DNA of 33,843 nt from a virus (IMGVR_UViG_3300033388_003924:1-33843), one strand, 5' to 3'; counted from the first letter of the stretch, positions 10,449 to 27,551 are shown. Notes: generated from the sequence alone by a model not told the origin. Made by a program: numbers and translations.

Positions 10449-10552
10449 TAGACTTTTTGCACTTTTTTATACCCTATTTATTACTACTTCTCATATATAT
10501 ATATTTACTTTTCTATAATCAGTAATATATAGGGGGTAAAAAAGTCTAAAAT
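10449..10552 (+). repeat. 100-bp dyad repeat, copy A (inverted relative to copy B at 27449-27551)
   Basis: The left arm (TAGACTTTTT at 10449, then GCAC, then TTTTTTATACCC) is answered by the right arm (GGGGGTAAAAAAGTCTA at 10532-10548) around an AT-rich centre of about 60 bases. The reverse complement of 27449-27551 aligns across the full length at roughly three quarters to four fifths identity by hand. Shared blocks include AGACTTTTTGCAC, TTTTTATACCC, TTACTAC, TCATAT, CAGTAA and TATAGGGGG. Runs of five G or C occur only in these two elements. Confidence 0.8.
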
Positions 10553-10633
10553 TTTTTTACTTATTCAGTTACTTATTTGATATGTTTTTTATAAATTGCA
10601 AGTCAAGATTTTAAAATAATTTATAAAGGACAT

Positions 10634-10712
10634 TTTGACAGATGAACTTAAAGCACTTAAAAAATTTAAATATGATTTGTCTTACTTCCCTATAGTAAGA
10701 ACATCTGTCAAA
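10634..10712 (+). promoter_or_regulatory. Structured RNA leader: start-codon-sequestering stem
   Basis: TTTGACAGATG (10634-10644) is perfectly complementary to CATCTGTCAAA (10702-10712), an 11-bp stem. Inside it, TCTTAC (10680-10685) pairs with GTAAGA (10695-10700). The outer stem buries the ATG of a small ORF (10642-10695) that fills the loop. CTTAC/GTAAG segments also occur in the following terminator hairpin, so alternative pairings are possible. The layout is like an attenuator: leader ORF, competing hairpins, terminator, then the regulated gene. The function is inferred. Confidence 0.5.
10642..10695 (+). CDS. Candidate 17-residue leader peptide
   Basis: ATG at 10642 to TAG at 10693-10695 encodes MNLKHLKNLNMICLTSL, with five leucines in 17 residues. 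AAAGGA lies upstream at 10625-10630, at a rather long spacing. The bases around the start, GACAGATG, are the same as at the starts at 13020 and 18238, which also open new gene groups. The ORF spans the inner hairpin of the leader structure, so ribosome passage would disturb it. A short ORF can arise by chance, so confidence is limited. Confidence 0.35.
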   Translation: MNLKHLKNLNMICLTSL

Positions 10713-10755
10713 GCTGGTAAGGTTTTCTCTCCTGATTATCCTTACCAGCATTTTT
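10713..10755 (+). terminator. Intrinsic terminator or attenuator hairpin before the helicase gene
   Basis: GCTGGTAAGG (10713-10722) pairs perfectly with CCTTACCAGC (10740-10749) around a 17-base loop, followed by ATTTTT. It ends 3 bases before the helicase ATG, which has no Shine-Dalgarno sequence. It could end late transcription, or act conditionally on the replication operon together with the leader ORF. Confidence 0.65.
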
Positions 10756-10758
10756 ATT

Positions 10759-12330
10759 ATGACAACATACACTTTAACTGATTACCAAAAAGAATTGTCA
10801 AGTAAACATATTGATACTCTTCATAAGCATAAGATTCTTTACTATGTTATGGAGCAAAGAACCTATAAAACTATTACTGCACTTCTTACAATTCAAAAGT
10901 ATTATAACAAGTATAAACCAAGAGACGGTAAAAATCATAATAAAGTTTTATTTGTTACAGGTAAAAAAATTATTAAAGATATTGAACTTGATATAAGTAT
11001 GTTGAAAAAAATACTTAAAGATAAGTATACACTTCAGATTGATGTAATAAATTATGAAATGCTGCACAAAATAAATAAAGATAATGATTATACTTTTATA
11101 GTTGTTGATGAACCTCAAACCCTTGGAGCTTTCCCAAAACCAAATTTAAGAACCAGATTATTAAAAGATATAGTTCAGTATAAACTTTTGATATTATTAT
11201 CAGGTACACCAACACCTGAAGGATTTTCTCAAATCTATCATCAACTTTATATTTCAATGAATACACCTTTCAAACAATGGGGTAATTTTTATAATTGGGT
11301 TAGTGCTGGATTTGTTGAACCTACTGAATTAAGAATTACTGGAAGAACAATAAAAATTTATAAGAATGCAAGAGAAGACAAAATTTTACCTTATGTAAAA
11401 CCTTTTATGATTACTTTTACACAAAAGCAAGCAGGGTTTAAACAAAAAGCTCCAATGGATATTATTAGACTTGTGCCCGGTAAACCTTCAATACAAAACT
11501 TGATTAAGATATTACTTAAAGATAGATATTATAAATGTAGAAAATTTGAAGGTGAGATAATTGCTGATACTGCTGTTGCCTTACAACAGAAAATACATCA
11601 ATTATCTTCAGGTACAATTATTTGTACACATCCAACAGAAACAGTAACAGTAAAGAAAAAAATAATTGACCCTGAACTAAGAAAAAAAGTAGAAGTTGAA
11701 ATTGAAGAACCAAAAAAGATTTATAAAATTCTGGATGAATCAAAAGCTGATTTTATTGAAGAAGAGTACAAGGATAAAAAGATTGCAATTTTTTATAAGT
11801 ATATATCAGAAGGAACTGTTTTAAGGAAAAGATTTAATACAACTGAGGACAACCACGAATTTAATGCTTCAGAAGATTTGGTTTTTATATCTCAATTTAG
11901 AAGTGGTTCAAGAGGTATAAACTTAAGTACAGCTGATTTAATAATTGCATACAATATTGATTTCAGTTATGAGATTTATTCTCAATTCAGACAAAGGTTA
12001 AGCTCCAAGGATAGAAAAGAACAACCTATAATACATTGGTTGTTTACAGCTTATGGTATGGAAGATAGGATATACTTAAAAGTAATAGAAAAAGAATCAT
12101 ATACATTAACATATTTTAAGGAAGATTATATGAGTACAAAAATAACACAATCAGTATTAAGGGAAGCATTAAGTATTAAGAATGCTATTTATAAACTTAC
12201 TGTTGAAATTCAGAATATGAATGCAGCAACAGACCTTGAAACACTTAAGTATTGTAAGGAGCAATTTATAAAGACCGGGTTAATTGAAGAAAAAGATTTT
12301 GATTCACCTTATGGTAAAGAAAAGAAATGA
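10759..12330 (+). CDS. SF2/SNF2-type DEAD-like helicase with degenerate P-loop
   Basis: 523 residues. Motifs in order: a Walker A-like MEQRTYKT (31-38), VVDEPQ (Walker B, D117-E118), LSGTPTP (148-153), and a C-terminal helicase domain with FISQFRSGSRGINLSTADLI and YSQFRQRLSS (motifs V and VI). Phage relatives usually read RTGKT at the P-loop; here the glycine before lysine is a tyrosine. The start has no Shine-Dalgarno sequence, lies immediately after a terminator-like hairpin, and is kept because the conserved N-terminal region begins soon after it. It opens the DNA metabolism operon; a role in replication, recombination or transcription remodelling is expected. Confidence 0.8.
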   Translation: MTTYTLTDYQKELSSKHIDTLHKHKILYYVMEQRTYKTITALLTIQKYYNKYKPRDGKNHNKVLFVTGKKIIKDIELDISMLKKILKDKYTLQIDVINYEMLHKINKDNDYTFIVVDEPQTLGAFPKPNLRTRLLKDIVQYKLLILLSGTPTPEGFSQIYHQLYISMNTPFKQWGNFYNWVSAGFVEPTELRITGRTIKIYKNAREDKILPYVKPFMITFTQKQAGFKQKAPMDIIRLVPGKPSIQNLIKILLKDRYYKCRKFEGEIIADTAVALQQKIHQLSSGTIICTHPTETVTVKKKIIDPELRKKVEVEIEEPKKIYKILDESKADFIEEEYKDKKIAIFYKYISEGTVLRKRFNTTEDNHEFNASEDLVFISQFRSGSRGINLSTADLIIAYNIDFSYEIYSQFRQRLSSKDRKEQPIIHWLFTAYGMEDRIYLKVIEKESYTLTYFKEDYMSTKITQSVLREALSIKNAIYKLTVEIQNMNAATDLETLKYCKEQFIKTGLIEEKDFDSPYGKEKK

Positions 12331-12485
12331 AAAAGAAATTAAAAATATTAGCTAATGAACATTGGAATTATATAGAAAAATTATTAAAAGCACATAATGA
12401 AAATGAGGTTATACTTAAAAAAATTGAGTTTCATTATAAAACTGCTTTTATTCATGGGTGGAAACATTGTAAGGAGAAAAAATAA
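12327..12485 (+). CDS. Small lysine-rich phage protein (52 aa)
   Basis: The ATG overlaps the helicase stop codon (ATGA), so translation is probably coupled. The product begins MKKKLKILANEHWNYIEKLL and ends KTAFIHGWKHCKEKK. The 'Y..AFIHG.KH' ending is common in tiny proteins next to phage nuclease and replication genes. It has no transmembrane segment. Function is unknown. Confidence 0.6.
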   Translation: MKKKLKILANEHWNYIEKLLKAHNENEVILKKIEFHYKTAFIHGWKHCKEKK

Positions 12486-12674
12486 TTGAAAACACAAAGA
12501 CAAATTAAAAATAAAATTAAAGAAGAAACAAAAAGATTTTTAGAATGCCAAAAAACATCAAAACATTTTCATGTTGATGAAGATAAGCTTATGCAAATGG
12601 CATATCAAAGGGAACTAAAATTAAGAACTGGAAAAATTAAAGCTTTAAAATGGGTATTGAATGAATATACTTGA
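12486..12674 (+). CDS. Small charged helical protein (62 aa)
   Basis: The start is a TTG at 12486, directly after the previous stop, with AAGGAG upstream at a good distance. The product is highly charged and helical and ends LRTGKIKALKWVLNEYT, an ending seen in small phage proteins of replication modules. It overlaps the nuclease gene by 14 bases. No family or function is recognised. Confidence 0.55.
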   Translation: MKTQRQIKNKIKEETKRFLECQKTSKHFHVDEDKLMQMAYQRELKLRTGKIKALKWVLNEYT

Positions 12675-12945
12675 AAGTAAAATTCAATCTGAATACATTA
12701 AATATTTAAATGGAAAAGGTTTTAAAGCTGTAAGACATCATCCAACAAGAGCAGGTGAACCTGATACTATATGCTGTATACATGGTAGATATGTTGAAAT
12801 AGAATTTAAAAAACTTACTGGTATACAATCTGCTTTACAAAAAATATCAAGAAGGTTATGTATAAAAGCTGGAGGTGAGTACTGGATAATAAAAAGCTTA
12901 ACACAATTACAAAGAAAAATAAACAGGTTAAGTAAAAAACTTTAA
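12661..12945 (+). CDS. VRR-NUC domain nuclease
   Basis: 94 residues, the full length of a stand-alone VRR-NUC domain. E5 in the first helix, GEPD (32-35), the strand YVEIEFKK (44-51) and Q60 follow the family pattern 'E..IQ...I..L...G......R.....G.PD......G...EVK......Q'. The usual E-x-K appears as E46-I-E48-F-K50, a small deviation. Phage VRR-NUC proteins are Holliday-junction or flap nucleases working next to SNF2 helicases, as here. Confidence 0.8.
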   Translation: MNILESKIQSEYIKYLNGKGFKAVRHHPTRAGEPDTICCIHGRYVEIEFKKLTGIQSALQKISRRLCIKAGGEYWIIKSLTQLQRKINRLSKKL

Positions 12946-12951
12946 AAAGTA

Positions 12952-12983
12952 TTTGCTTATTAAAAATGTATTAAGTATTTTTG
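12952..12983 (+). promoter_or_regulatory. Bacteroidota-type promoter (TTTG-N20-TATTTTTG)
   Basis: TTTG at 12952-12955 is followed after exactly 20 bases by TATTTTTG at 12976-12983. This matches the known Bacteroidota sigma consensus TTTG-N19-21-TANNTTTG. It lies 37 bases before a gene start in a gap between genes. The 14 bases TATTTTTGTAACTC recur identically at 14097-14110, also just before a gene. Confidence 0.7.
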
Positions 12984-13019
12984 TAACTCATAAATAAAAA
13001 TAATTGGGAGAAAAGACAG

Positions 13020-13298
13020 ATGGAAAAAATTTCTTATGCAGGTAGTAACTGGTTTATTAAAAAAGAAACAAACACCTCTTTAATATTAAGTAAAACCTTC
13101 AAAGGGTTTGATTCACCTCTTATAATTACAACAACTCTTGATGATCATTTACTTGATTTACCAACACCTGAAGCACCAAACAAAAAAACTATTTCAAGAA
13201 CAATGGGAGAACCAATACTAAAAGAATTTGACTTGGAAGCTATAGAAGAATTATCTAAATCATCTGGATATAAAAAAAGAAAAATTAAGTATTCTTAA
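13020..13298 (+). CDS. Hypothetical protein (92 aa)
   Basis: First gene after the promoter at 12952-12983, with GGGAG upstream and a GACAGATG start context. The product begins MEKISYAGSNWFIKKETNTS, carries LDLPTPEAPNKK in the middle and ends in a basic tail (KKRKIKYS). It is soluble. I recognise no domain. The basic tail and the following histone-like gene hint at nucleic-acid contact, which is only inference. Confidence 0.6.
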   Translation: MEKISYAGSNWFIKKETNTSLILSKTFKGFDSPLIITTTLDDHLLDLPTPEAPNKKTISRTMGEPILKEFDLEAIEELSKSSGYKKRKIKYS

Positions 13299-13332
13299 CT
13301 AAATTTTTAACAAACAAAAGGAGTATTAAAAA

Positions 13333-14022
13333 ATGGCAAGTCCAATATTAGAAAGACTAAGAAAACAAGCAATGAAAGAACTTAAGGAAGAAAAAGCAGT
13401 TGATGGTAAAGCTGAAGCAGCAGAAGAAAAGAAAGCAAAAGCAGCAGCAAAGAAAGCAGCAGCAGAACAGAAGAAGAAAGATGTACTGGAAGCAGCAGCT
13501 GAAGCAAAGAAAGAAAAAGCAGCAGCAAAGAAAGCTGGTAAAGGTAAAACTGGAGTTGCGGCAATAAAAGCAGCAGCAAAGAAGACAGCAGAAAAGAAAG
13601 CTGGTGCAGGTACTTTAACACTTAAAGCTAAAGAAGCAGCAAAGAAAAAAGCAGCAGTTGCTAAAAATAAAGTTACACCCGGTAAGAAACTTAAAGGAAC
13701 TGAAGTACAAACTGGTGCTGGTTTTTTCTATACTCAACATCTTACTTCACCTCAAAAAGAAATAAAAGAAAATATAGAAGGTACACCTTACTATATAACA
13801 AACCATGGAAGGGTTTATTCCAAAAAGAACAATGGACAATTAAAAGAATGTGTAACATTGATTTATGGAAGAGTACCAATAGCTGATTTAAGAGCTTCAG
13901 GTGATAGAGTAAGGTTTAAAATTGCAGATATGATTGCTGAATATTTTACTGCAAAGCAAGCAAAAAGATTTGCTGAATTAAATAATGAATATGTTGTTGG
14001 TAAAAAAATAAAAAAGAAATAA
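13333..14022 (+). CDS. Histone H1-like Lys/Ala tail fused to NUMOD4-like DNA-binding domain
   Basis: 229 residues, with AGGAG before the ATG. Residues 15-115 are almost only alanine and lysine with some glutamate (AAEEKKAKAAAKKAAAEQKK and similar), like the C-terminal tail of histone H1. Residues 150-220 resemble NUMOD4/HNH-associated modules: PYYITNHGRVYSKKNNGQLK, then FKIADMIAEYFT, as in 'Y.VSN.GRVRS......LV.EAF'. No HNH catalytic motif follows. It may bind or compact phage DNA near the replication site. It is the last gene before a strong terminator. Confidence 0.65.
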   Translation: MASPILERLRKQAMKELKEEKAVDGKAEAAEEKKAKAAAKKAAAEQKKKDVLEAAAEAKKEKAAAKKAGKGKTGVAAIKAAAKKTAEKKAGAGTLTLKAKEAAKKKAAVAKNKVTPGKKLKGTEVQTGAGFFYTQHLTSPQKEIKENIEGTPYYITNHGRVYSKKNNGQLKECVTLIYGRVPIADLRASGDRVRFKIADMIAEYFTAKQAKRFAELNNEYVVGKKIKKK

Positions 14023-14036
14023 TACTTAAGAAAAAT

Positions 14037-14077
14037 GAAACAGGTTATTATACTTTTTTATTATAATAACCTGTTTC
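14037..14077 (+). terminator. Strong intrinsic terminator
   Basis: GAAACAGGTTATTATA (14037-14052) is perfectly complementary to TATAATAACCTGTTTC (14062-14077), a 16-bp stem with a 9-base T-rich loop. AT-rich sequence with T-runs follows. It lies 15 bases after the histone-like gene and could work in both directions. Confidence 0.85.
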
Positions 14078-14104
14078 TATTTATAAAATTTTTTATTATT
14101 TTTG
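14074..14104 (+). promoter_or_regulatory. Bacteroidota-type promoter before the atypical gene pair
   Basis: TATTTTTG at 14097-14104 matches TANNTTTG. At a 19-base spacing upstream lies TTTC (14074-14077), three of four bases of TTTG, which overlaps the foot of the terminator stem. The identical 14-mer TATTTTTGTAACTC at the stronger promoter (12976-12989) supports it. The gene start is 38 bases downstream. Confidence 0.55.
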
Positions 14105-14141
14105 TAACTCTAGTTTTAATTAAAAAAAATCAGGAGGACAA

Positions 14142-14423
14142 ATGACTTTACCAGACAAGATGAAAGTAGTGGCGCATGATGGAGAAATAAGAATTAAGCA
14201 AAAAGATGGCAAGTATGATTTTATACAAGGGACGGTAGTTCTATTATCAGACGCAATAAAGATAGCACAGGATCACGCAGACGAAGCGGTTAAGGATGAA
14301 CGGGAAAGAATCATAAGACGGATTGAAACAGTCAGAGATAAATTCCACAAGAAACTTGAAAAAGACGAGATATACGCTTGCAATGAAATTCTTGAACAAA
14401 TCAAAGGAGCGTGTGATGGATAA
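14142..14423 (+). CDS. Hypothetical protein with foreign base composition (93 aa)
   Basis: AGGAGG precedes the ATG. The product starts MTLPDKMKVVAHDGEIRIKQ and has a long charged helix (DEAVKDERERIIRRIETVRD). About ten or more CpG dinucleotides occur within 282 bases (gcg, acg, cgg codons), whereas CpG is rare in the neighbours outside CCGG. Codons such as GCG, ACG, GAC and CGG are atypical for this phage. It lies behind a terminator and its own promoter, so it looks like a recently acquired moron-type gene. Function is unknown. Confidence 0.7.
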   Translation: MTLPDKMKVVAHDGEIRIKQKDGKYDFIQGTVVLLSDAIKIAQDHADEAVKDERERIIRRIETVRDKFHKKLEKDEIYACNEILEQIKGACDG

Positions 14424-14517
14424 TATATTTGCATTTTTTGAATGGTTGAATAAAATCACTCAACCAATTCGTGATCTTAAAATGGAATTGACAGGAGGTT
14501 TTAAAACATGGCATTAA
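14416..14517 (+). CDS. Small protein (33 aa) in the atypical unit
   Basis: ATG at 14416 with AAAGGAG upstream, overlapping the previous gene by 8 bases and the next by 10. The product MDNIFAFFEWLNKITQPIRD continues to a TWH ending and is amphipathic with aromatic residues. Its start lies in the same non-typical segment as the upstream gene. The close packing and ribosome binding site support it. Function is unknown; it might be a partner of the upstream protein. Confidence 0.5.
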   Translation: MDNIFAFFEWLNKITQPIRDLKMELTGGFKTWH

Positions 14518-15473
14518 CTAAATCCCTAATTAAACCGCATGATAATATTAAAGGTGTTCAAAGGATTGATTACTTTGATGATCGTTATTATGGTGTATGT
14601 TATAAAGAACAATTCAAATTAAAAAAACAAACAAGATATAGAACACTCGAAGCACATTTTCCAAGTGTAACTTCAGTACTTGGTGTATTCCCTAAAGATT
14701 TTCTTGCACACTGGAGGGGTGAAGTAGGCAATGCAAGAGCTGATCAAATTCTTGCTGAAGCTAATAAGATGGGAAGCTTTATACATTATGCTGCTGAAGT
14801 ACTATGCAGAAAAGGAGTTGTAATTTTTAATCCATTATATAATGAACAGTATTCAAAAAAACAAATTGATGCACTTGAAAGAAAACATAAAGAAATTGTT
14901 ATTGTAAGATTTCAAAAAGAATGGGTACAGATTAGAAGAATTTATATGTTACTTCAGGAACTTAAGTTTGAAATTACTGGACATCATACAGAAACAGAAC
15001 AAACAGTTTTTTCTGTTAAACATAAGTATGCAGGTACACTTGATTTGCTTTGTGAAATAGGTGCTGGTACTTATCAAATAAATGGAGCTAAACCATTAAC
15101 ACTTGATTATGGTTTATACTTAGGTGATTGGAAAACAGGTAAAGGTATCGGTGAAACTTATTACATGCAGCAAGCAGCATACCTTGAAGCAGTTATTGAA
15201 ATGACACCTGAATTAGATAAGTATATAAAAGGTTGTTTAATATTTCATACCAATGCAAAAACAAAAGCAGGTATTGAAGGACTTGCAACTAAATTTATTG
15301 ACCGGAAACAATGCAAAGAATACTTCAGACAATTCTTAGCAGTTTATGAAGTATATAAAATTTCAAATCCAATACCTGAACCAAAAGAATTTACTATGAG
15401 TACAATGTTTTACTTAAATTCCCCAGCTGTTGATAAAGCTAAAGCAAGAAAAAAGAGCAGGGGTATAAAATGA
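14508..15473 (+). CDS. PD-(D/E)XK nuclease, RecB/Cas4-like
   Basis: 321 residues, with AGGAGG before the ATG. Catalytic pattern: MGSFIHYAAE with H93, AGTLDLL with D179, DWKTGKG with D207 and K209, then MQQAAYLEAV with Q221/Q222 and Y225. This is the order of the PDDEXK_1 superfamily found in phage exonucleases. The gene overlaps the DNA polymerase by 4 bases (ATGA), so it is probably an exonuclease or recombination nuclease of the replication operon. Confidence 0.8.
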   Translation: MALTKSLIKPHDNIKGVQRIDYFDDRYYGVCYKEQFKLKKQTRYRTLEAHFPSVTSVLGVFPKDFLAHWRGEVGNARADQILAEANKMGSFIHYAAEVLCRKGVVIFNPLYNEQYSKKQIDALERKHKEIVIVRFQKEWVQIRRIYMLLQELKFEITGHHTETEQTVFSVKHKYAGTLDLLCEIGAGTYQINGAKPLTLDYGLYLGDWKTGKGIGETYYMQQAAYLEAVIEMTPELDKYIKGCLIFHTNAKTKAGIEGLATKFIDRKQCKEYFRQFLAVYEVYKISNPIPEPKEFTMSTMFYLNSPAVDKAKARKKSRGIK

Positions 15474-17428
15474 AAAATTCATTACCCTGTTTTACAAATT
15501 GTATTTCAATGGATGCTAAAGGTTTATGGGCTGGTTGTGATTTTCATATAACACAAGTTACTTATTCAGAAATTTTAAGTATACTAAAGGAGGTGAAGAA
15601 GGAAACAAATATTCTTGCACTTGATGTTGAAACTTTTGCACATGAAGATTTAGTAAGTACAAGAGAAGTTTATACTTATTTAAGAAAAAAAGACTTTGAA
15701 GCTGAAGGTAAAAAATTTGGTGTTGGTGCAACTAAAACTGTTAATAAAGAATATGATGAAGTACTTAAAGAAGTTGCACTTAATCCAAGATTGAATACTA
15801 TAAGACTTGTACAAATAAATACAGGTACAGAAATACTTGTTATTGATCTTAAGTATATTAAAAATCCTGAACCTTTATTTAAACAGATAATGAAATTTTC
15901 AATTACCGGGCAAAACATTAAGTTTGATATTGAATCTATTAAAGCAAAACATCCATGGTTTGAACCAAAAGAATTATATGATGTTATGATTGGAAATAAG
16001 TTTTATAGAGCTTCAAAGATTGCTGGTACGTTTTATAATAACCTCAAAGAAGTTATCAAGTACTGGATGGAAGTAGAGATTGAAAAAGAACATGGTAAAA
16101 GTTATTGGGGTGGTATAATTACTGGTGATATGTTTAAGTATTCTTATTATGATGTTTTTTACTTATTAGATATTACTTACAAACAGATTAAAAATATAAA
16201 TAAAGATTCGATAAATTTAACATATAAGAAACCTTACTTTGATAATTTACTTGATGATAGAGTTGCTATAATTGAAATGAAATTTTTATACCCTTTCATT
16301 GAAACTGAATTAAAGGGTATACCAATAAATGTTAATTACTTAAAATCACAAAAAGCAGAACTGGAAAGAAAGGTTAAAAAATTAAGGAAACCTTTTACAA
16401 GTATAAATCCTAATTCACCACAACAACTTCAAGACTTTTTATTTAATAAAAAAATATATGTACCTAGTACTGGTAAACCTGTTCTGATGAAATATAGAGA
16501 ACATAAAATAATAAAACAGTTACTGGACTATAAAAAATTTAATAAAAGGTTGCAGATGGTTACAGATTACATTGGTAAACACATGGAAGAAGATCAAAGA
16601 ATATATGTAAACTTTAATTCATTTGAAGGAATGGCTGGAAGGATGTCTGCAAGAAATCCAAATTCACAACAGATACCACACGCTATAAAAGATAATTTCT
16701 ATGCTCCAGTAAGAGGGTATAAATTATGTAAAGCTGATTACCCTTCACTTGAAGCAAGGGTTGCAGGTTGTTATACAAGAGATAAAAGAATAATAGAAAT
16801 ATTTTCACAAACTAAAACTGTTAGTAAATACTTAAGAGATATGCACTATATAACAGCAGGTGCATTTTATGGTAAGCAACCTTGTGATGTAACAGAAGAT
16901 GAAAGGTATCTTGCAAAACCTGCAAACTTTGGTTTAATGTTTGGTATGGGTATACAAACTTATATTGATTACTGTTATGAAAACTTTGAACTGGAAATTG
17001 ATGAAGAAGAAAGTAGAAGGCAGCACAAAGTATACTTTGATTTATATCCGGGTATCAAAAAGCTTCATAAAAATAATGGAGCTGCATTAAATAATTATGG
17101 GTTTATCACTTGTAAAACTTTACTTGGTAGACAAGTTGTAACTGATATGTACACCAATGCAGCTAATTACCCAATACAAGGAAGTGCAGCAGATATATTT
17201 AAGCTTGCTTGTATACTGTTTTATGAAAGGGTGAAGAAGCTTAAACTGGAAGCATGGATTGTGAATTATATACATGATGAAGTAATTGTTGAATCAAAGT
17301 CTTCAGATTATAGTAAGGTTAAGCTGATACTCAAGGAATCAATGGAAGCTGCAATAAACTTTACTATAAGAGATTTTGAAACAGAAGTAAATGTTGAAGA
17401 TATAAAAGTTGCTAAACTAGCAGCATAA
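15470..17428 (+). CDS. DNA polymerase I, family A, with 3'-5' exonuclease
   Basis: 652 residues. The exonuclease domain shows LALDVETFA (D52, E54), TGQNIKFDIES and YSYYDVFYLLDI. The polymerase domain shows RMSARNPNSQQIP, motif A ADYPSLEARVAG (D423), motif B RYLAKPANFGLMFGMG, and motif C YIHDEVIVE (H602-D603-E604). All catalytic acids are present. Motif B ends MFG where most relatives have YG, a Tyr-to-Phe change; the position that discriminates dideoxynucleotides is Phe, as in E. coli Pol I. There is no 5'-3' exonuclease domain. This is the replicative polymerase of the phage. Confidence 0.95.
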   Translation: MKNSLPCFTNCISMDAKGLWAGCDFHITQVTYSEILSILKEVKKETNILALDVETFAHEDLVSTREVYTYLRKKDFEAEGKKFGVGATKTVNKEYDEVLKEVALNPRLNTIRLVQINTGTEILVIDLKYIKNPEPLFKQIMKFSITGQNIKFDIESIKAKHPWFEPKELYDVMIGNKFYRASKIAGTFYNNLKEVIKYWMEVEIEKEHGKSYWGGIITGDMFKYSYYDVFYLLDITYKQIKNINKDSINLTYKKPYFDNLLDDRVAIIEMKFLYPFIETELKGIPINVNYLKSQKAELERKVKKLRKPFTSINPNSPQQLQDFLFNKKIYVPSTGKPVLMKYREHKIIKQLLDYKKFNKRLQMVTDYIGKHMEEDQRIYVNFNSFEGMAGRMSARNPNSQQIPHAIKDNFYAPVRGYKLCKADYPSLEARVAGCYTRDKRIIEIFSQTKTVSKYLRDMHYITAGAFYGKQPCDVTEDERYLAKPANFGLMFGMGIQTYIDYCYENFELEIDEEESRRQHKVYFDLYPGIKKLHKNNGAALNNYGFITCKTLLGRQVVTDMYTNAANYPIQGSAADIFKLACILFYERVKKLKLEAWIVNYIHDEVIVESKSSDYSKVKLILKESMEAAINFTIRDFETEVNVEDIKVAKLAA

Positions 17429-17457
17429 TTAAAAACTTAAAATAAGGAATATACCAA

Positions 17458-18237: not shown

Positions 18238-18630
18238 ATGAAAGAATTTATTTTAATGGCAAATCACACAATGTTTTTTGAAGGTACTATGTCTGAACTT
18301 ACACTTGCACAACTTCAGTTTATTATTAAGGAAGGTAATGTAAGTATATACTATAAAGATGCACCTTTACCAACTAAAGAAGAAATACTTGAAAGTTTAG
18401 AAAAGAAAAACTTAATAATTAAACTGGATGAAGAACCTGAAGTTAAAAAAGAAAAGTTTTTTACTTTAGATCAATCATCTGATATATTAAGTGATGAAAA
18501 TCTTGAAGAAGAATTTGATTGGAGTATGGTCGGAGTAAAGATAAATAAATCTAAATCAGGATTTGAAGGTGTTACATGTGAACAAGCAATAAAAAATATA
18601 AACTTAATTTTAAGAGGTATAGAGATATGA
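18238..18630 (+). CDS. Hypothetical protein preceding the primase (130 aa)
   Basis: AAGGAG lies 10 bases upstream, with the GACAGATG start context shared with two other unit-opening genes. The product begins MKEFILMANHTMFFEGTMSE; a start at the second methionine is possible. It is acidic (LDEEPEVKKEKFFTLDQSS, LEEEFDW) and overlaps the primase/helicase gene by 4 bases, so it is probably co-translated with it. A helicase-loading or primase-accessory role is plausible from context alone. No family is recognised. Confidence 0.6.
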   Translation: MKEFILMANHTMFFEGTMSELTLAQLQFIIKEGNVSIYYKDAPLPTKEEILESLEKKNLIIKLDEEPEVKKEKFFTLDQSSDILSDENLEEEFDWSMVGVKINKSKSGFEGVTCEQAIKNINLILRGIEI

Positions 18631-20972
18631 ATAATATTCTATTTGGTAAAGCTCCAGTTTTAACAAACAATGCAGTACTTAAAAAAATAAGTATTGCACA
18701 ATTTGTAAAACTATTAAAGACATCAAAGCAGCTCAAAAAAGTTACAGATGATATAAGAAAATGTAAGGATGTTTTAGAAAAGAAAAGACTTAAGAAACAA
18801 ACACTAGATTATATTTTACCTTTCAATTATAAAAAACTTGTAAGAAACCAAGCAAACTTTATTAGTGCTGAATATATGATTTTTGAAGCTGATGGTGTAA
18901 CAAACCCGGCAAAAGAATTACTTAAGATTAAGAAAGATTCAAGAATTCTTGTTTCATATATATCAGTATCAAACAATGGTTATAAGTTTATGGTAAAACT
19001 TAATGCACCTATAACTAAAGAACATTATTACCGGGCTTATAACTACTTCAAGAATATGTTTAATAATGAATTTGATATTGAACTAGACCCTGCAAATAAT
19101 GATATGGCAAGAGTACAGTTTTTATGCTATGATACAAAAGTATATTTTAATCCAAAAGCAAAACCTGTTGATGTAAAAGAAATTGTGTACCAGCTGAACC
19201 TGATTGATGAAAATTATAAAGGACATTATGAACAAGAATTTTTATATGATATTGATGAAGTACCTAAAGCTATTGATTACATTCATAAGCATGGTTATCA
19301 TGATCTTGAAGATGAATCTGTATGGTGGCGTTTAAGTATGTCTTTAGCATCCCTTGGTGAAGAAGGAAGGAAACACTTCTTGCATCTTTCTTGTGATCAT
19401 CCTTTATACCCAAAAGATACTAAAGTAAGAATGAATAAAAAGTTTGATCATCTACTTCAACAGCATGGAAGGTATCATGATGAAAATAGAGTTTTAAGTA
19501 TAAACTCTTTCTTTCATATTGCCAAAACAAAATTCAACTATAGAATTAAACAATCATCTAAAAGAGCAATAGAACTTTTACTTGCAAATGAATTTTATGA
19601 ACAGTATAAGGATTTACTTATATATGATCATTCAAAGATGTCTTCAGGAAAATTATATTCTTGGTACATCTGGAATAATAAAACTTATGTTGCTGCTGAT
19701 AGAGGTGAAGTATCAAATTTATATATTCAATTTCTGGAGAAAAAGAAAAAAGAAGTTATTGCTTCAGGTGGTGGTGAAGATGATGATACTTATGGAGTAC
19801 TTACTTTATCAAATATATCAAGAGCTGAAACAAAAAGGTATAGAGATTTAACTTTAGATTGGGCAAGCACTAAACCAAACTTTGCAATTAAACCTGATGA
19901 ACTTGACATGAATTTAGATTTGTTCAATACTGAAAGTGGAATACTTAATTTTATAACCGGTAATATACTTAAGCATGATCAAGGTTTTAGAATGACAAAA
20001 ATTTCACCTGTTAAGTATATTAAAAAATCAAAATGCCATGCTTGGGAAGCTTTTCTTGATAAATTATTTTTTAGTAATAGTAACATCATAAATTATATAC
20101 AAGAAGCTGTTGGTTATAGTTTGACCGGGAACATATCAGAACAATGTTTATTTTTCTTATATGGTACAGGTGCAAATGGTAAGAGTACTTTCTTAGAAGC
20201 AATAAAACATATTGCTGGTGATTATGCAACACATGCTAATTATGAAACCTTTACAGCTAATCAAAAAGACGGTTCAAATCATTCTGAAGATGTGGTAAGG
20301 TTAAGAGGTGCAAGAATGGTTACAACTTCTGAAATCAATACCAATAAAAGTATCAATGAATCTTTAATTAAATCAATGACTGGAGGTGATAAAATAACTG
20401 CAAGAGCTTTGCATAGTTCTTCAATTGAATTTACACCTAATTTTAAAATCTGGATTGCCGGGAATCATAAGCCAAAACTTAATAATTTTGATATAGGTAT
20501 TAGAAGAAGATTTCATATAATACCATTTAACTATAGATTTAGGCAAGATGAAATAAGACCGCAATCAGAAATACTTAATGAATTTGAAGCTGAAGATTCT
20601 GGAATACTTTCATGGTGTATTAAAGGTGCTGAAAGATGGTACAGAAGAGGTAAGTTATCAATCCCTATAGAAGTTGAAGAAGAAACACAAAAGTATTTTA
20701 AAGAGTCTAATATTATAGAACAGTTCCTTGATGATCTTTGTGTTTTAAGTCCAGCTGAAAAATGCCCGGCTTTAGATTTGTTCAATGAATATTTTAAGTA
20801 TTCAAATGAAAACCATGAACAACCAATGGGTAGAAATAAATTTTATGGAAGACTTGAAGAGCTTGGATTTACAAGAAGTAGAGATTCAGCAGCAGGTAAA
20901 CAGATTGTTAATGGTATGAATTTGAAAGTAGAAGAAAAACTTAAAGATAAAAAACATAGTAATTTAATTTAA
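18627..20972 (+). CDS. Primase/SF3 helicase with BT4734-like N-terminal domain
   Basis: 781 residues. Residues about 75-190 match the BT4734/VirE-N pattern of Bacteroidota elements (ILVSYISVSNNGYKFMVKLN, DIELDPANNDMARVQFLCYD, VYFNPKAKP). A D5-like region precedes the SF3 helicase: Walker A GTGANGKST (513-521), then VRLRGARMVTTSEINTNKSI, IKSMTGGDKITARALHSSS, and FKIWIAGNHKPKL with sensor asparagine, followed by GIRRRFHIIPF with an arginine finger. The C-terminus resembles a winged helix (FNEYFKYSNENHEQPMGRNK). It should prime and unwind DNA for the family A polymerase. Confidence 0.85.
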   Translation: MNNILFGKAPVLTNNAVLKKISIAQFVKLLKTSKQLKKVTDDIRKCKDVLEKKRLKKQTLDYILPFNYKKLVRNQANFISAEYMIFEADGVTNPAKELLKIKKDSRILVSYISVSNNGYKFMVKLNAPITKEHYYRAYNYFKNMFNNEFDIELDPANNDMARVQFLCYDTKVYFNPKAKPVDVKEIVYQLNLIDENYKGHYEQEFLYDIDEVPKAIDYIHKHGYHDLEDESVWWRLSMSLASLGEEGRKHFLHLSCDHPLYPKDTKVRMNKKFDHLLQQHGRYHDENRVLSINSFFHIAKTKFNYRIKQSSKRAIELLLANEFYEQYKDLLIYDHSKMSSGKLYSWYIWNNKTYVAADRGEVSNLYIQFLEKKKKEVIASGGGEDDDTYGVLTLSNISRAETKRYRDLTLDWASTKPNFAIKPDELDMNLDLFNTESGILNFITGNILKHDQGFRMTKISPVKYIKKSKCHAWEAFLDKLFFSNSNIINYIQEAVGYSLTGNISEQCLFFLYGTGANGKSTFLEAIKHIAGDYATHANYETFTANQKDGSNHSEDVVRLRGARMVTTSEINTNKSINESLIKSMTGGDKITARALHSSSIEFTPNFKIWIAGNHKPKLNNFDIGIRRRFHIIPFNYRFRQDEIRPQSEILNEFEAEDSGILSWCIKGAERWYRRGKLSIPIEVEEETQKYFKESNIIEQFLDDLCVLSPAEKCPALDLFNEYFKYSNENHEQPMGRNKFYGRLEELGFTRSRDSAAGKQIVNGMNLKVEEKLKDKKHSNLI

Positions 20973-20983
20973 GAGGTTTTGTA

Positions 20984-21457: not shown

Positions 21458-21460
21458 GAA

Positions 21461-21942: not shown

Positions 21943-22144
21943 TAAGTATATTTCATGCCTGATTAAAGCATTTTTTGAAGGTCTAATGTATGTGTCTATC
22001 AATTCCTTGCATAAATAAAGTTAAGAATTTACTTAAAAAACAAAGGTTTTGAAGTTGTTGGAAAATAGTTTGGAAAATTAAGTAAAAACTTTTGCAAATT
22101 CCCAGATTTATGCCTAATATGTTAATAAAAAAAGGAAACCTAAA

Positions 22145-22471: not shown

Positions 22472-22509
22472 GTAAATAAAAAATAATTAAAAAACTAGGA
22501 GCTGCTAAA

Positions 22510-22788: not shown

Positions 22789-22802
22789 CCGGAAATAATA
22801 AA

Positions 22803-23363
22803 ATGGCAATTTACAAAAACTTATCAGATGAAGACAAAAAAGAAAGGGACAACTTGGTAGAACAGATTCAAGAATTATACCCTTCAGTATATAACAAAGA
22901 AGCACAATTTGAAGAATTTTGTGATATGGATAATTCAATATTGAAATCTGAACTTGAATTTTTAACTTACAGCTCCAATAAAAAAGCTGGTACAAGTTCA
23001 ACTGTAAAATTCAATGAGTTGCAGAAAGCAGTACAGGAAGAAGAAGATAAAGCATCTAAATCTTGTGTTGATATTGCTTATGAAATACTTAATACTAAAA
23101 ATGAAGCTTACAAAGAAGATTGTAAAATTGAACAGGTTAAAAGACAAAAAGAAAAAGCTATTCTTTGTGATGTTTCTCTTGCACTTATGGCAGGTGAAAA
23201 TAATGCTTATGATACAACTAAAGAAAATACTGAACTTGCTGTTGATTCAGAAGAATATTATGAAAATGCACTTGGAAGTATTTCTTCAACAGAACAAGTT
23301 ACAGATGGTGAATATAAAAAAGAAGTTATTGCATGGTTTGAAAAACACAATCATATTATTTAA
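22803..23363 (+). CDS. Hypothetical acidic coiled-coil protein (186 aa)
   Basis: The ATG at 22803 follows CCGGAAATAATAAA, with only a weak ribosome binding site. The product is acidic and helical (LSDEDKKERDNLVEQIQELY, LQKAVQEEEDKASKSCVDIA). Four cysteines are scattered without a metal-binding spacing. It is co-directional with its neighbours. Function is unknown. Confidence 0.55.
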   Translation: MAIYKNLSDEDKKERDNLVEQIQELYPSVYNKEAQFEEFCDMDNSILKSELEFLTYSSNKKAGTSSTVKFNELQKAVQEEEDKASKSCVDIAYEILNTKNEAYKEDCKIEQVKRQKEKAILCDVSLALMAGENNAYDTTKENTELAVDSEEYYENALGSISSTEQVTDGEYKKEVIAWFEKHNHII

Positions 23364-23385
23364 GTAAAAAACCGGGAAGGTTAAA

Positions 23386-24111
23386 ATGACACCTGAAAAA
23401 TTAAGAGATATTGCAGCACAATTTTTTTACAACAGTGATAGAATGTATGTTTATCATTCAGCTTTAATAAAGATGTCTAAAACAGAAATGATTGATCTTA
23501 TTGAAGCACTAAACCAGTTAAGGGGTAATTTCAAAAGCTCAACTTATGAAGTACTGGATGAACTGAAGAAAGCACAAACAATTGCAACATCTGATAAAAG
23601 ATATAAAGATTGGTGTAATAATAACCCACATTATTTAGGTGAAAATCAGGATGAAAGTTTTTTAATTAAGAAAAAACTTATATTAAAAGTTTCTGTTACC
23701 TTGGAAGATATGAATTATGAAACTGAACCTGTACAGTTTCAGCACTTTGAAGAACCTAGTAAAGTTACTTATGTATCAAGAGATCAAAGTTTTTATATAT
23801 CTTTACCGGGTGGTGATGATAGAGAAGTTTATAGTGTATCTGATGCTGCTTGTATACTGGTTGAAGAAGGTTTTACAGTAGTAAAGAAAACTGAATTTGT
23901 TAATGACAAAAAGAAAATACCTTACAACATTGAATTTGATATAAAAGATATTGCAGAATTAAAACAGCATGATATAAATGATGAATATGTTAAAGATTTT
24001 TATAATAAGTATATAAGTAAACCTTTTACAGCTGATCAATTAAATGATTTTATTAAAGATTTTTTTGCAAGAAAAACAATTAAGGGATACTTAAATGAAA
24101 AATCTAACTAA
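23386..24111 (+). CDS. Two-part hypothetical protein with shared 'MSK..M.DLI' module (241 aa)
   Basis: The N-terminal 70 residues (LRDIAAQFFYNSDRMYVYHS, then ALIKMSKTEMIDLIEAL) resemble the whole of the 85-residue protein at 24630-24887. Residues 100-240 form a separate acidic alpha/beta domain (SFYISLPGGDDREVYSVSDA). GGGAAGG lies before the ATG, within a CCGGG motif that here is intergenic. It overlaps the next gene by 17 bases. Function is unknown. Confidence 0.55.
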   Translation: MTPEKLRDIAAQFFYNSDRMYVYHSALIKMSKTEMIDLIEALNQLRGNFKSSTYEVLDELKKAQTIATSDKRYKDWCNNNPHYLGENQDESFLIKKKLILKVSVTLEDMNYETEPVQFQHFEEPSKVTYVSRDQSFYISLPGGDDREVYSVSDAACILVEEGFTVVKKTEFVNDKKKIPYNIEFDIKDIAELKQHDINDEYVKDFYNKYISKPFTADQLNDFIKDFFARKTIKGYLNEKSN

Positions 24112-24601
24112 CTTAACAGAAATGGAAAAACTTATTACTAAGGATGCACTTAAAAAATATGATGCGGCATCTAAAGTAATTTTTGATGATCTTGAAATTG
24201 AGGGTTTTGAAATAAAGCAGGTGGAAGATTTTTTTAAGCAAAGATTACAGCTCTTGTTTGAATCTAATGAACTGCATGGTGAAGTAGTATCTTCTGGTAA
24301 TGTATTCCAGCTGCAAGCAGAAGCAAAGAATCTTATTAAAGATGTGAACAGTAAAAGAAATAGCTTAAGGGAAGTACTAGAAACTTTACAGGTTGATTTT
24401 GAACCTCTAGTAATACATACTAGTGTAAAAAATAAGCAGTTGATACAGGTAGTAAAAATTGAAATTGATTATAGCGGTATATTTTATATAGCTTATGGTA
24501 CAGAAGTTTCAAATTTAAAATTTCAAGATGTTGATGATTGTGTTGATTGGTTAATAGAAAATAGATATGATGGTATTATTGAAGTAATAGATAGTAAGTA
24601 G
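24095..24601 (+). CDS. Hypothetical protein (168 aa)
   Basis: The ATG at 24095 lies inside the end of the preceding gene, and no strong ribosome binding site is seen, so coupled translation is likely. The product is helical at the N-terminus (MEKLITKDALKKYDAASKVI) and alpha/beta at the C-terminus (VVKIEIDYSGIFYIAYGTEV, DCVDWLIENRYDGIIEV). The C-terminal part resembles the domain in the preceding protein's second half in general character, but I cannot claim homology. Confidence 0.55.
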   Translation: MKNLTNLTEMEKLITKDALKKYDAASKVIFDDLEIEGFEIKQVEDFFKQRLQLLFESNELHGEVVSSGNVFQLQAEAKNLIKDVNSKRNSLREVLETLQVDFEPLVIHTSVKNKQLIQVVKIEIDYSGIFYIAYGTEVSNLKFQDVDDCVDWLIENRYDGIIEVIDSK

Positions 24602-24629
24602 ACACTTATAAATAATGGGAGTAAGTAAA

Positions 24630-24887
24630 ATGAAAAAATACTGGAGTAACTTAGAAAAAATTGCAGATGATATTTATGGAGGTGCAGGTAAAAAACATTG
24701 GAACACTTTATTAAGGATGTCAAAGCTTCACATGTTTGATTTGATTGATATTTACTACAGAACATACAATGTTAATAAAGGTAATACTGAACACTATAAG
24801 CAAGCAGCTAGAAAGATAAGAAGAGTTTTACAAAATGCTTTAACAGCTCGAAACTTCTCAAATAAAATGAGTAGTTCAGAATTTTAA
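24630..24887 (+). CDS. Small helical protein, 'MSK..M.DLI' family (85 aa)
   Basis: The start at 24630 is chosen over an in-frame ATG at 24615 because GGGAG (24617-24621) lies 8 bases before it. The product MKKYWSNLEKIADDIYGGAG continues with KHWNTLLRMSKLHMFDLIDI and ends in a basic helix (KQAARKIRRVLQNALTARNF). It resembles the N-terminus of the 241-residue protein and the C-terminus of the next protein, so three related modules occur within 2 kb. Function is unknown. Confidence 0.6.
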   Translation: MKKYWSNLEKIADDIYGGAGKKHWNTLLRMSKLHMFDLIDIYYRTYNVNKGNTEHYKQAARKIRRVLQNALTARNFSNKMSSSEF

Positions 24888-24912
24888 TACTTAATAATTG
24901 GGAGTGAAAATA

Positions 24913-25383
24913 ATGTCAAAATTTAAAGTAACATTAACAAATGAAAATGATGAAGTAATTGCTGATTGTTGGATTGCTGATACAGAAGCAGAAATTGCTA
25001 AACTGGAAATTGATGATAATGAAACTGTTTTTCATTATGAAGAATCAAAGACTATATTAAATTATACTACTGATAACTTTTTAATGAATGAAATTAAAAT
25101 ACTTAAAGAGAAACATAAAAAAGAAGAAGAACCAGAAGCGTTAAATACTTATACACCTATTTATGCTATTGCAAAAGTAATACAAGCTGATTGGAAAAAT
25201 ATTAACTATGCAGCTAAACCTTATTTAAATGCCATGCTTCAGATAACAAATATAAATAATACTTACTTTGCAGATTCAGGTAAATCTGTTGTACTTTATT
25301 TCCTTGCTAATGCTCAAACTTGGAAGGGTGAAACAGCAAGAGAAGTTAAATCTTTACTTAAAAAAATTGCAGGTGTAAAATAA
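24913..25383 (+). CDS. Phage protein with 'YLNAM...YFLANA' domain (156 aa)
   Basis: ATG at 24913, preferred over an in-frame TTG at 24898 because GGGAG lies 8 bases before the ATG. Residues 1-70 form a small beta/alpha part. The C-terminal 75 residues follow a widespread phage motif: 'IAK.IQADW.....AAKPYLNAMLQI', 'YFADSGKSVVLYFLANAQTW', 'KGETAREVKSLLKKIAG'. I know this pattern from many phage early genes but have no function for it. It overlaps the next gene by one base. Confidence 0.65.
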   Translation: MSKFKVTLTNENDEVIADCWIADTEAEIAKLEIDDNETVFHYEESKTILNYTTDNFLMNEIKILKEKHKKEEEPEALNTYTPIYAIAKVIQADWKNINYAAKPYLNAMLQITNINNTYFADSGKSVVLYFLANAQTWKGETAREVKSLLKKIAGVK

Positions 25384-25598
25384 TGAAAACTAAAAAATCA
25401 AAAAGTAAATTCAAAGTGTATTATCAAGATGGAGCTGAATTTTATGATGCAGAAACTAATAGTATAATTGCGTCTTATCCTGAATATGTTGATGATGATT
25501 TTGATGTTGCTGGTGGTATTGCAGCTGAAGAACGATTTTTAAATGATCATCCACAATACAAACAAAGTACAGTATTTAATAATAATGGAGGTGCTTAA
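25383..25598 (+). CDS. Hypothetical small acidic protein (71 aa)
   Basis: TAATG overlap with the preceding gene. The product begins with a basic stretch (MKTKKSKSKFKVYYQDGAEF) and continues acidic (YPEYVDDDFDVAGGIAAEER). Its length and packing fit the early cassette. No family is recognised. Confidence 0.5.
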   Translation: MKTKKSKSKFKVYYQDGAEFYDAETNSIIASYPEYVDDDFDVAGGIAAEERFLNDHPQYKQSTVFNNNGGA

Positions 25599-25599
25599 A

Positions 25600-26085
25600 A
25601 TGGCAGCAGTACCAACTACTATAAAAGAAACAATTAAAAACATTGAAGATATGAATTGTACACTAGAAGGAACTTACCCTTTAATGGAAGCAAGAGATAA
25701 TTTATATGAACTTGCAAAGTATATTGAACTTATTACAGGTCAACTTAATAAAGCTTTTGATGATTTGAATAAAAATAACCTCCAGCTGGTTAAGCTGAAT
25801 AATTCATTAAGTTTGAATGCAAGACTTACAGAAAAACTTAATTCTGAAAAATACTTTATTGTCAATAATCAGAAATTTAATTGTGATGATTTATATGTTT
25901 ATCAGAATGGATTAAGAACAAGAAAGATATGCTGCTATGAAAAACTTAAACCTCCAGCAGTACCCAGTACACATACACTTGGAAAAAATGTTATAGTTTG
26001 TGAATTTGATTCTGAAACTTTTGGTTATGATTTAACAGCAGCAAAAAAAGATGATACTTTTGAATATATAATAAAATGGTTATAA
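25600..26085 (+). CDS. Hypothetical protein with central coiled coil (161 aa)
   Basis: The start at 25600 is chosen because GGAGGT lies 9 bases upstream; an in-frame ATG at 25543 would overlap the preceding gene by 56 bases. The product begins MAAVPTTIKETIKNIEDMNC. Residues 35-85 look like a coiled coil (LITGQLNKAFDDLNKNNLQL). The C-terminal half has four cysteines, two adjacent (KICCYEKLK). Function is unknown. Confidence 0.55.
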   Translation: MAAVPTTIKETIKNIEDMNCTLEGTYPLMEARDNLYELAKYIELITGQLNKAFDDLNKNNLQLVKLNNSLSLNARLTEKLNSEKYFIVNNQKFNCDDLYVYQNGLRTRKICCYEKLKPPAVPSTHTLGKNVIVCEFDSETFGYDLTAAKKDDTFEYIIKWL

Positions 26086-26108
26086 ACTAAACTTAAGGAA
26101 AAAACAAA

Positions 26109-26528
26109 ATGAAAACTTTATTACTTAACATCTGGACTTATTTTTTATTAGCTGTATTCACTGTAAAGAACTTAGTTAAAAACTTATTTGTATTTATTTA
26201 TAATTACAAATTTTTTGCAAAGAAAAAAGTAGCGAAACCAGAAAAGGGTAGCTGGAGAAAAAAGAGATATAAAGTAAAATTTAAAACTCTTAAGTATACT
26301 GGTTTAACTTATCCTTTATCTAAATGCTTCAAGAAAGGTTATGGATTAAAAGGTATTGAAGCTAAAACCGGAATAGCTATACAAACCTTAAAAGATTATA
26401 GAAATGAATTACTTGAACCTTTGAAGATGAAACTGGTAAGTAAGAAATTAGCAAGAAGTTTTTATGGTACTAATGCAAAAGAAGCTGCACCTGATTGTAA
26501 ATATTCTCTTGCTGGACAAATCAGATAA
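26109..26528 (+). CDS. Membrane-anchored protein with helix-turn-helix-like C-terminus (139 aa)
   Basis: AAGGAAAA precedes the ATG. The N-terminal 35 residues are hydrophobic with basic flanks (MKTLLLNIWTYFLLAVFTVK) and likely span the membrane. A strongly basic linker follows (KGSWRKKRYKVKFKTLKYTG). Residues 80-105 (KKGYGLKGIEAKTGIAIQTL, then KDYRNEL) look like a helix-turn-helix. A membrane-tethered DNA-binding protein would be unusual in a phage. Function is inferred from pattern only. Confidence 0.55.
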   Translation: MKTLLLNIWTYFLLAVFTVKNLVKNLFVFIYNYKFFAKKKVAKPEKGSWRKKRYKVKFKTLKYTGLTYPLSKCFKKGYGLKGIEAKTGIAIQTLKDYRNELLEPLKMKLVSKKLARSFYGTNAKEAAPDCKYSLAGQIR

Positions 26529-26551
26529 TTAAAAATTTTGGAGTTAATGAA

Positions 26552-26773
26552 ATGGATAAGTGCAAAGAATTCTTAAAACATAAAAGTAAATTCTGGTTTA
26601 TTGAAAAATATTTTCCTAATAAAATGATACTGCTGGAAGAATTAGCTAAAGAAAATAAAGAACCTCAATTATTAAATGAATTAAATGATATTTGGTTTAA
26701 GTTACCTGATAGTTTTAATATTATAAATATGCCTGAAGGATGGAGTGAATTTTTAAGTATTTTAGAATCTTAA
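26552..26773 (+). CDS. Hypothetical small protein (73 aa)
   Basis: A weak GGAG lies before the ATG. The product (MDKCKEFLKHKSKFWFIEKY ... NIINMPEGWSEFLSILES) is a small aromatic-rich soluble protein. It sits in the same operon as the membrane-anchored protein. No family is recognised. Confidence 0.5.
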   Translation: MDKCKEFLKHKSKFWFIEKYFPNKMILLEELAKENKEPQLLNELNDIWFKLPDSFNIINMPEGWSEFLSILES

Positions 26774-26786
26774 AGGAGGTGTTATA

Positions 26787-27008
26787 ATGGCACATAGTTA
26801 TAAAGATTTAGATTTATATAAGCAGCATGTAAAAGATTATGTTGAAAGAGTAGTTGAAGAATTTAATAAGTATGTTGAAAAAACTATTGTTCCAGATATA
26901 AATACACTTGCTTATAATACACTTATAGAAATATCTTTTCACCAAGGAACTAAAGTTTCTGTTATAGGTGAAGTAATAAAAAAAGAACTTGTACTGGAGC
27001 AAATATAA
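26787..27008 (+). CDS. Hypothetical small helical protein (73 aa)
   Basis: It has one of the strongest ribosome binding sites in the window, AAAGGAGGTG, 13 bases after the preceding stop, so high expression is likely. The product begins MAHSYKDLDLYKQHVKDYVE and ends KKELVLEQI; it is mostly helical with many glutamates and lysines. It overlaps the next gene by one base. Function is unknown. Confidence 0.55.
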   Translation: MAHSYKDLDLYKQHVKDYVERVVEEFNKYVEKTIVPDINTLAYNTLIEISFHQGTKVSVIGEVIKKELVLEQI

Positions 27009-27223
27009 TGAATAATAAAAAAGCAAAAGTTATATCTGAAATGAATATACCCGGACATAAAAGAATAGCTCTTTATGAATCATTAGTTAAACCTGATTTG
27101 TTTGTTGTAACAACAATCTGTACAATTAAGTATGAAGTAGATTCTGAAGAAGGTTTTCAAGATGATCTTGATGCGGCTATTATGAAATATATCGAATTAA
27201 CTACACCTACTAATGGTAGTTAA
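27008..27223 (+). CDS. Hypothetical small protein, last gene of the early cassette (71 aa)
   Basis: The ATG overlaps the preceding stop (TAATG). The product (MNNKKAKVISEMNIPGHKRI ... EEGFQDDLDAAIMKYIELTT) looks like a compact alpha/beta protein. The gene ends where the non-coding hub begins. No family is recognised. Confidence 0.5.
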   Translation: MNNKKAKVISEMNIPGHKRIALYESLVKPDLFVVTTICTIKYEVDSEEGFQDDLDAAIMKYIELTTPTNGS

Positions 27224-27263
27224 TTATTTCATATAAAATCTTTCCTCCTTACCTTTCACATAA

Positions 27264-27297
27264 AACCCTTGGTAAACATAAATTATTATCAGGGGTT
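27264..27297 (+). terminator. Possible weak terminator of the early operon
   Basis: AACCCTT (27264-27270) can pair with AGGGGTT (27291-27297) with one G-T wobble around a 20-base loop. The sequence CTTTCCTTGTTTT follows, a broken T-run. It lies 41 bases after the last early gene. Confidence 0.35.
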
Positions 27298-27362
27298 CTT
27301 TCCTTGTTTTGTAAAAACTAAAATACTTAAAATGTGTTAAAACTGGACTTTGAATATACTTC

Positions 27363-27416
27363 AAGCTTTATTTAAGTATTTCAGGATAGTTTCGAAACAG
27401 ATCAAAAATAAAGCTT
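27363..27416 (+). repeat. 11-bp perfect inverted repeat around a TTTCGAAA palindrome
   Basis: AAGCTTTATTT (27363-27373) and AAATAAAGCTT (27406-27416) are exact reverse complements separated by 32 bases. The 8-base palindrome TTTCGAAA (27390-27397) lies inside the spacer and contains a CpG, which is rare in this genome. It could be a protein-binding operator or an RNA stem-loop. Confidence 0.6.
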
Positions 27417-27448
27417 TTATCAAAAAGTGTATAGTAAATAGTACAAAC

Positions 27449-27551
27449 TTTTTAGCCTATTTTACCCCCCTATAGTTACTGGTTATGGAATTGTATATAT
27501 ATAATATGACAGGTAGTAAGATAAGGGGGTATAAAAAGTGCAAAAAGTCTG
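27449..27551 (-). repeat. 100-bp dyad repeat, copy B (inverted relative to copy A at 10449-10552)
   Basis: On the + strand the left arm is TTTTTAGCCTATTTTACCCC followed by CCTA, and the right arm is TAAGGGGGTATAAAAAGTGC followed by AAAAAGTCTG. Read on the - strand it aligns with copy A over its whole length, including the GCAC asymmetry in one arm. The arm with AGACTTTTTGCAC faces away from the replication/early module in both copies. It ends about 80 bases before the small terminase gene. Confidence 0.8.

Follow-up and report, generated by a model that had tools for sequence, protein, structure and literature searches.

The analysed stretch of DNA, referred to below as the window, comprises 33,843 bases of a virus record that is classed as linear. 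All of its larger genes point in the same direction (Table 1). A lysis cassette, in which a GTA-type holin gene precedes the gene for a DUF5675 protein, is followed by an early module coding for a SNF2/DEAD-type helicase, an exonuclease, a family A DNA polymerase and a D5-type primase-helicase, and then by terS and terL, in this order. Neither an integrase nor a repressor was recognised in the window. The stretch that would run from the end of the record (33.6 kb) round to its start should contain capsid and connector genes; these seem to be missing, suggesting that the genome is either incomplete or cut in the late region. A probable tail-fibre gene (6375-8039) has internal repeats of about 156 bp and a weak SMP-30 match, and a lysine/alanine-rich protein with internal AAKKA repeats, possibly histone-like, is encoded at 13333-14022.

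The primase-helicase is composed of a BT4734-like N terminus, D5_N, DUF5906 and a weak Pox_D5 match near the C terminus; PF08706, PF19263 and PF08800 score above the cut-off, and PF03288 just below it. Its helicase region matches ASFV C962R and poxvirus D5. A structure model of the C-terminal half, made to check for a winged helix, was too poor for use (mean pLDDT 44). The BT4734-like N terminus, a domain name that we take to derive from a Bacteroides protein, and the apparent lack of Shine-Dalgarno sequences hint at a Bacteroidota host.

Table 1. Coordinates of the dyads, their parts and the neighbouring genes in the window
Feature	Position	Strand	Basis or remark
GTA-type holin, precedes the DUF5675 gene (lysis cassette left of A)	9535-10002		PF11351
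DUF5675 protein, last gene beyond A	10003-10440	+	PF18925
Dyad A (left site)	10450-10561	.	between lysis cassette and first early gene; 81.6% identical to reverse complement of B
A outer half-site, GTGC-bearing, toward late genes	10450-10485	-	four-arm alignment, half-site model
A AT-rich core, 35 bp, candidate unwinding element	10486-10520	.	83% AT (nearly identical stretch)
A inner half-site	10521-10556	+	four-arm alignment, half-site model
SNF2/DEAD-type helicase, first large gene within the bracketed module	10759-12330	+	
Exonuclease, within the bracketed module	14508-15473	+	PHROGs 298
Family A DNA polymerase, within the bracketed module	15470-17428	+	PF00476, E 8e-59
D5-type primase-helicase, proposed reader of both dyads	18627-20972	+	PHROGs DNA primase, E 9e-103
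Dyad B (right site), inverted relative to A	27440-27550	.	between end of early module and terS; self-blastn
B inner half-site	27445-27480	-	four-arm alignment, half-site model
B AT-rich core, 34 bp	27481-27514	.	72% AT (nearly identical stretch)
B outer half-site, GTGC-bearing, toward late genes	27515-27550	+	four-arm alignment, half-site model
Terminase small subunit, first late gene beyond B	27630-28226	+	PHROGs 309

The early module is bracketed by two inverted copies of one element, dyads A and B. A first-pass annotation of the sequence had proposed such an element at 10449-10552 and 27449-27551; the element is real, and the homologous block is slightly longer than proposed. Self-blastn aligns 27440-27550 with 10561-10450 at 81.6% identity over 114 columns (E about 1e-19). 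This is the strongest inverted match of the window, and the pair also gives the two longest inverted pairs in a repeat search. Formal alignment against shuffled sequence, the check named in the annotation, yields a score of 120 versus a maximum of 44 in 2000 first-order Markov shuffles, and none of the 74 random segments drawn from the window yielded a second site of equal quality. The copies lie 16,960 bases (~17.0 kb) apart, in the sole intergenic gaps longer than 300 bases (10441-10758, 318 bases; 27224-27629, 406 bases) as defined by ORF calls of at least 50 aa. They also contain the window's only G5/C5 runs (10532, 27465 and 27525). Each copy aligns to its own reverse complement and is therefore an imperfect palindrome. 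The additional block in one arm, GTGCAAAA, faces outward in both copies, and the GTGC-bearing arm is oriented toward the late genes in A and B alike. On all these points of position and anatomy the first-pass description was accurate.

Because the four arms align with one another, the unit is a 36-bp half-site that is used four times, inverted around cores of 35 and 34 bp. The four half-sites share a mean column identity of 74%, with a consensus of about AGTAATAAATAGGGGGTAAAAAAGTGCAAAAAGTCT. Searched with a model built from both arms of A, the window yields the arms of B with 28.2 and 23.5 bits (next match 8.9), and the reciprocal model from B finds the arms of A at 27.8 and 26.0 bits (next match 10.2). 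For the model made from all four arms, shuffle maxima range from 6.4 to 11.0 bits; the half-site search identified exactly four half-sites in the whole window. The cores are conserved between A and B nearly as well as the arms (78% versus 80-86%). Within the arms, tandem 9-mers (AAAAAGTGC/AAAAAGTCT) are clear in the outer arms only. The window iterons are weak, and the dyads were detected through their homology while remaining unflagged by our iteron detector, which recovers both ori and crr of P4 as a positive control.

Both dyads can fold as RNA, but the changes between A and B tend to disrupt pairing and not to compensate: over both stems, ten pairs are lost through a single change, two survive a single change and only one is maintained by a double change. 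The pair-breaking changes together with the near arm-level conservation of the cores point to DNA sites bound by protein and not to RNA hairpins. Consistently, no terminator-like site is present at A or B, promoter-like sites are no more frequent at the dyads than by chance, and an Rfam search at the dyads returned no match. The T-tract hairpin of an intrinsic terminator is absent from the dyads, and compensatory change, as seen above, is almost absent. Terminator-like signals do occur elsewhere: a weak one at 27290-27306, outside B, and an AT-rich palindrome at 14001-14106, between two early genes, with a 16-bp stem and a T-rich tail resembling an intrinsic terminator.

Close relatives of the phage were found neither in IMG/VR (terL best about 53%; primase two loci at 32-33%; polymerase none) nor among GTDB genomes. 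An exact 18-mer of the outer arm occurs in five other stretches, and these occurrences were put down to chance, as the matches end within about 22 bases. Distant terL relatives have iteron clusters around AT-rich DNA upstream of terS, and one of them (G007; 44,355 bp, with a direct terminal repeat) carries a further cluster, homologous to the first, at the opposite end of its early module. No iteron pair was found in the terL-related phages with other replication systems (CD1801, TVCOM_ph1, phiJH1301-1, Javan117, IPP23, FNU_1P and GBK2). Clostridioides phage CD1801 (L215) does have a homologous repeat pair, lacking iterons, in unannotated gaps (15580-15747 and 28762-28942). The closest phages by primase among those examined (G013, G014 and phi105; 26-28% identity) have a single cluster beside the primase gene, and in Wanderer and PI-Sepi-HH2, which also have D5 primases, clusters are present only beside the primase.

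We then examined a panel of 20 whole contigs, selected solely for a D5 primase like that of G023, to which the window primase is ~20% identical. Two homologous iteron dyads bracket the primase in 15 of them (G034, G035, G038-G042, G044, G045, G047, G050-G052, G054 and G055), where G045 is counted with its terminal repeat closed, and for G039 and G042 the evidence comes more from shared iteron clusters than from blast. The other five lack a clear bracket: G036, G043 and G048 have one cluster, G037 has none, and G053 is doubtful since its second match consists of the contig ends. These ends (1-85 and 44651-44729) match the internal iteron site at 15462-15590 identically; assembly across a repeated origin may account for this. 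Pairs are also present in four contigs found through terL (G001, only if circular, G007, G019 and G023). Relatives with an early module of the same kind thus mostly retain a pair; the opposite pattern, loss of both copies with the gene order kept, had been named in the annotation as evidence against the element. In some genomes the dyad was equalled by a few random segments, probably because these overlap the second dyad or coding repeats. Dyad spacing in the paired phages, measured within contigs, is 13.6-17.8 kb, a range that includes the window value. Phages with VapE-type primases have pairs in two of eight cases (G022 and G056); in the remaining six, a single cluster coincides with the 3' end of the primase gene or lies close to it.

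The survey also bears on two roles listed in the first-pass annotation, a packaging signal and a recombination or inversion site, neither of which held up. Pairs occur both with and without the window's terL family, indicating that the pair tracks the primase and not the packaging genes. Thus, although B lies directly upstream of terS, a pac signal that is also used elsewhere is very improbable: A is far from terS, and the pair is also carried by phages where no member of the window's terL family was found. We give just as little credence to the dyads being the terminal inverted repeats of a transposable early module or the ends of an invertible segment. Inverted repeats 17 kb apart would fit such a module, but no transposase or recombinase was recognised among the scanned window proteins, no target duplication is obvious by eye, and each repeat is itself palindromic. 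In addition, the 18% divergence between A and B argues against frequent recombination. Among the relatives the better alignment of the pair is inverted in 14 cases, direct in four and unclear in one; since the dyads are nearly palindromic and the phages related, this orientation bias is a tendency, not a test, yet the four direct pairs do not suit an invertible segment.

In ten panel genomes we asked whether the two sites of a genome share their iterons. With one mismatch allowed, site 2 contains 4-13 occurrences of the iteron found at site 1 of the same genome, against none or few (0-3) of the iterons from genomes that use another one. The iteron differs between groups of genomes. An iteron that is common to both sites and yet group-specific suggests that one protein probably reads both sites of a genome. 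When phages share an iteron, their primases resemble one another more closely in the C-terminal region, to a degree slightly above that of the helicase domain (69 of 2000 label shuffles, with relatedness uncontrolled), a hint that the primase may be this reader. The sharing of iterons within each genome would also suit a division of labour in which one dyad is the origin and the other serves copy control or incompatibility by titrating or pairing the initiator, as in the handcuffing known for iteron plasmids. We regard this as unlikely, for both copies have a complete dyad with an AT-rich core, which is more than titration needs, and copy control has a less obvious use in a lytic burst.

The positions of the sites relative to genes were judged in ten panel phages from protein sequences, without a family search. 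In most of them the left site is flanked by the integrase or its neighbours on one side and by repressor/immunity genes on the other; the right site follows the last early genes and precedes the late regulator/terminase region. The window dyads, at the late/early and early/late borders, occupy positions equivalent to those in these temperate relatives. Such positions raise the possibility that the dyads are sites for transcription regulators separating early from late expression, be it as operators, insulators or terminators; the placing of the relatives' right site just ahead of the late genes, and of their left site between the integrase and the repressor genes, could be read in this way, as could the + strand T tract of A. 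The terminator, promoter and Rfam results given above and the disruption of RNA pairs between A and B speak against it, as does the link of the pair to primase type, together with the location of the cluster beside the primase gene in single-site phages. Regulatory sites are therefore improbable, and the terminator or insulator role suggested in the annotation is not borne out. Of the roles that it listed, paired origins or initiator sites are the one that finds good support in the comparative evidence.

The best match among known systems is satellite P4, in which crr (4291-4590) and ori (9086-9809) flank the operon of the alpha primase and both contain type 1 repeats. The winged-helix domain of alpha binds the origin repeats, after which the protein unwinds and primes the DNA (PMC4234260). 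Like P4, the window encodes a primase-helicase of the D5/SF3 class and has two separate cis elements of one repeat family, placed left and right of the primase gene: A at 10.5 kb, the primase at 18.6-21.0 kb and B at 27.5 kb. In P4 the shared iterons form inverted sets around AT-rich DNA; in the window the half-sites are inverted around AT-rich cores, with clear tandem 9-mers in the outer arms only. There are also differences. P4 is an 11.6 kb satellite with a site spacing of about 5 kb, its crr is a double 120-bp element that differs from ori whereas A and B are alike, its repeats are unrelated in sequence to the 36-bp half-sites, and its primase domain is of the Toprim type (PMC4234260).

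Origins of phage-inducible chromosomal islands (PICIs), tested in plasmids, invariably comprise an AT-rich region with an iteron set on each side (PMC6092414). In this they resemble each window dyad, and in SaPI/PICI elements the sets are read by Rep/primase. However, SaPI/PICI elements have one origin each, directly 3' of rep, whereas the window dyads lie at a distance from the primase gene (8.1 kb upstream of it and 6.5 kb downstream), and the window has no further half-site, either directly 3' of this gene or elsewhere. The position of the single clusters in the VapE phages, described above, is that in which PICI origins were tested, and thus supports an origin reading of the sites. In pRN1/BIP-1 a large dyad is likewise the proposed target of a primase-SF3-winged-helix protein, but it is a single stem-loop 3' of the replication gene, and no pair is described. 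Herpes simplex oriS and oriL also combine a dyad of initiator sites with an AT-rich core, in more than one copy per genome; their initiator and virus group are unrelated to those of the window.

Phage SPP1 offers a different model of how two origins may work together. Its oriL and oriR are similarly organised, lie 12-13 kb apart and are both bound by gp38, and a proposed model has the second origin stall forks and so trigger concatemer synthesis (PMC6316719, PMC3485210). By analogy, one window dyad might start theta replication while the other, bound by the initiator, stalls the fork to give concatemers for packaging, in which case the dyads would be functionally unequal. The two similar elements with repeats and an AT-rich region (a candidate unwinding region in the window), the conservation of both cores and the location of B next to terS would all agree with this. 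On the other hand, SPP1 relies on the DnaB-type helicase gp40 with a dedicated loader, gp39, and a separate binder, gp38, and not on a D5 primase; its oriL lies within gene 38. No counterpart of gp38, gp39 or gp40 was recognised among the scanned window proteins, some small early ORFs being without matches, and P4 is nearer in both primase type and layout. We consider the SPP1-like mechanism possible but tentative. It concerns the mechanism within a paired-origin reading, so its probability overlaps with that of the explanation that we prefer.

The two sites are homologous and dyad-symmetric and bracket the replication module, and this arrangement is frequent in D5-primase phages and annotated in P4. 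Taken together with the comparisons above, the dyads are likely to be paired replication origin sites read by the D5-type primase-helicase of the phage, and a bipartite origin like ori/crr of P4 is the most likely reading of the pair. The primase-helicase would bind the inverted half-sites that flank the AT-rich core of each dyad, melt the core and start replication; the second site would cooperate with the first by looping or joint loading, or serve as an alternative start. Here we infer that the primase is the binder, that the core is melted and that a single cycle uses or requires both sites. The origin reading is weakened by the weak iterons of the window, the low similarity of its primase to those of the panel and the single sites in its nearest relatives by primase, as well as by the five panel contigs without a clear bracket and the different layouts of the two P4 sites.

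The literature covered, in which few subscription journals are represented, yielded no previous account of such paired sites in D5 phages. We judge the odds to be even that tailed phages with D5 primase-helicases generally replicate from two-site origins placed around the early module, a hitherto unrecognised architecture of which ori/crr of P4 would be the reduced satellite form and the window phage a divergent example. If so, P4 crr, seemingly a peculiarity of a satellite, would belong to a common phage design, and the pairs would provide a route to origins in phages whose initiators are D5-type primases. The many natural pairs with matching iterons and initiators would also make it directly testable why there are two sites, be it for joint initiation, fork stalling or copy control.
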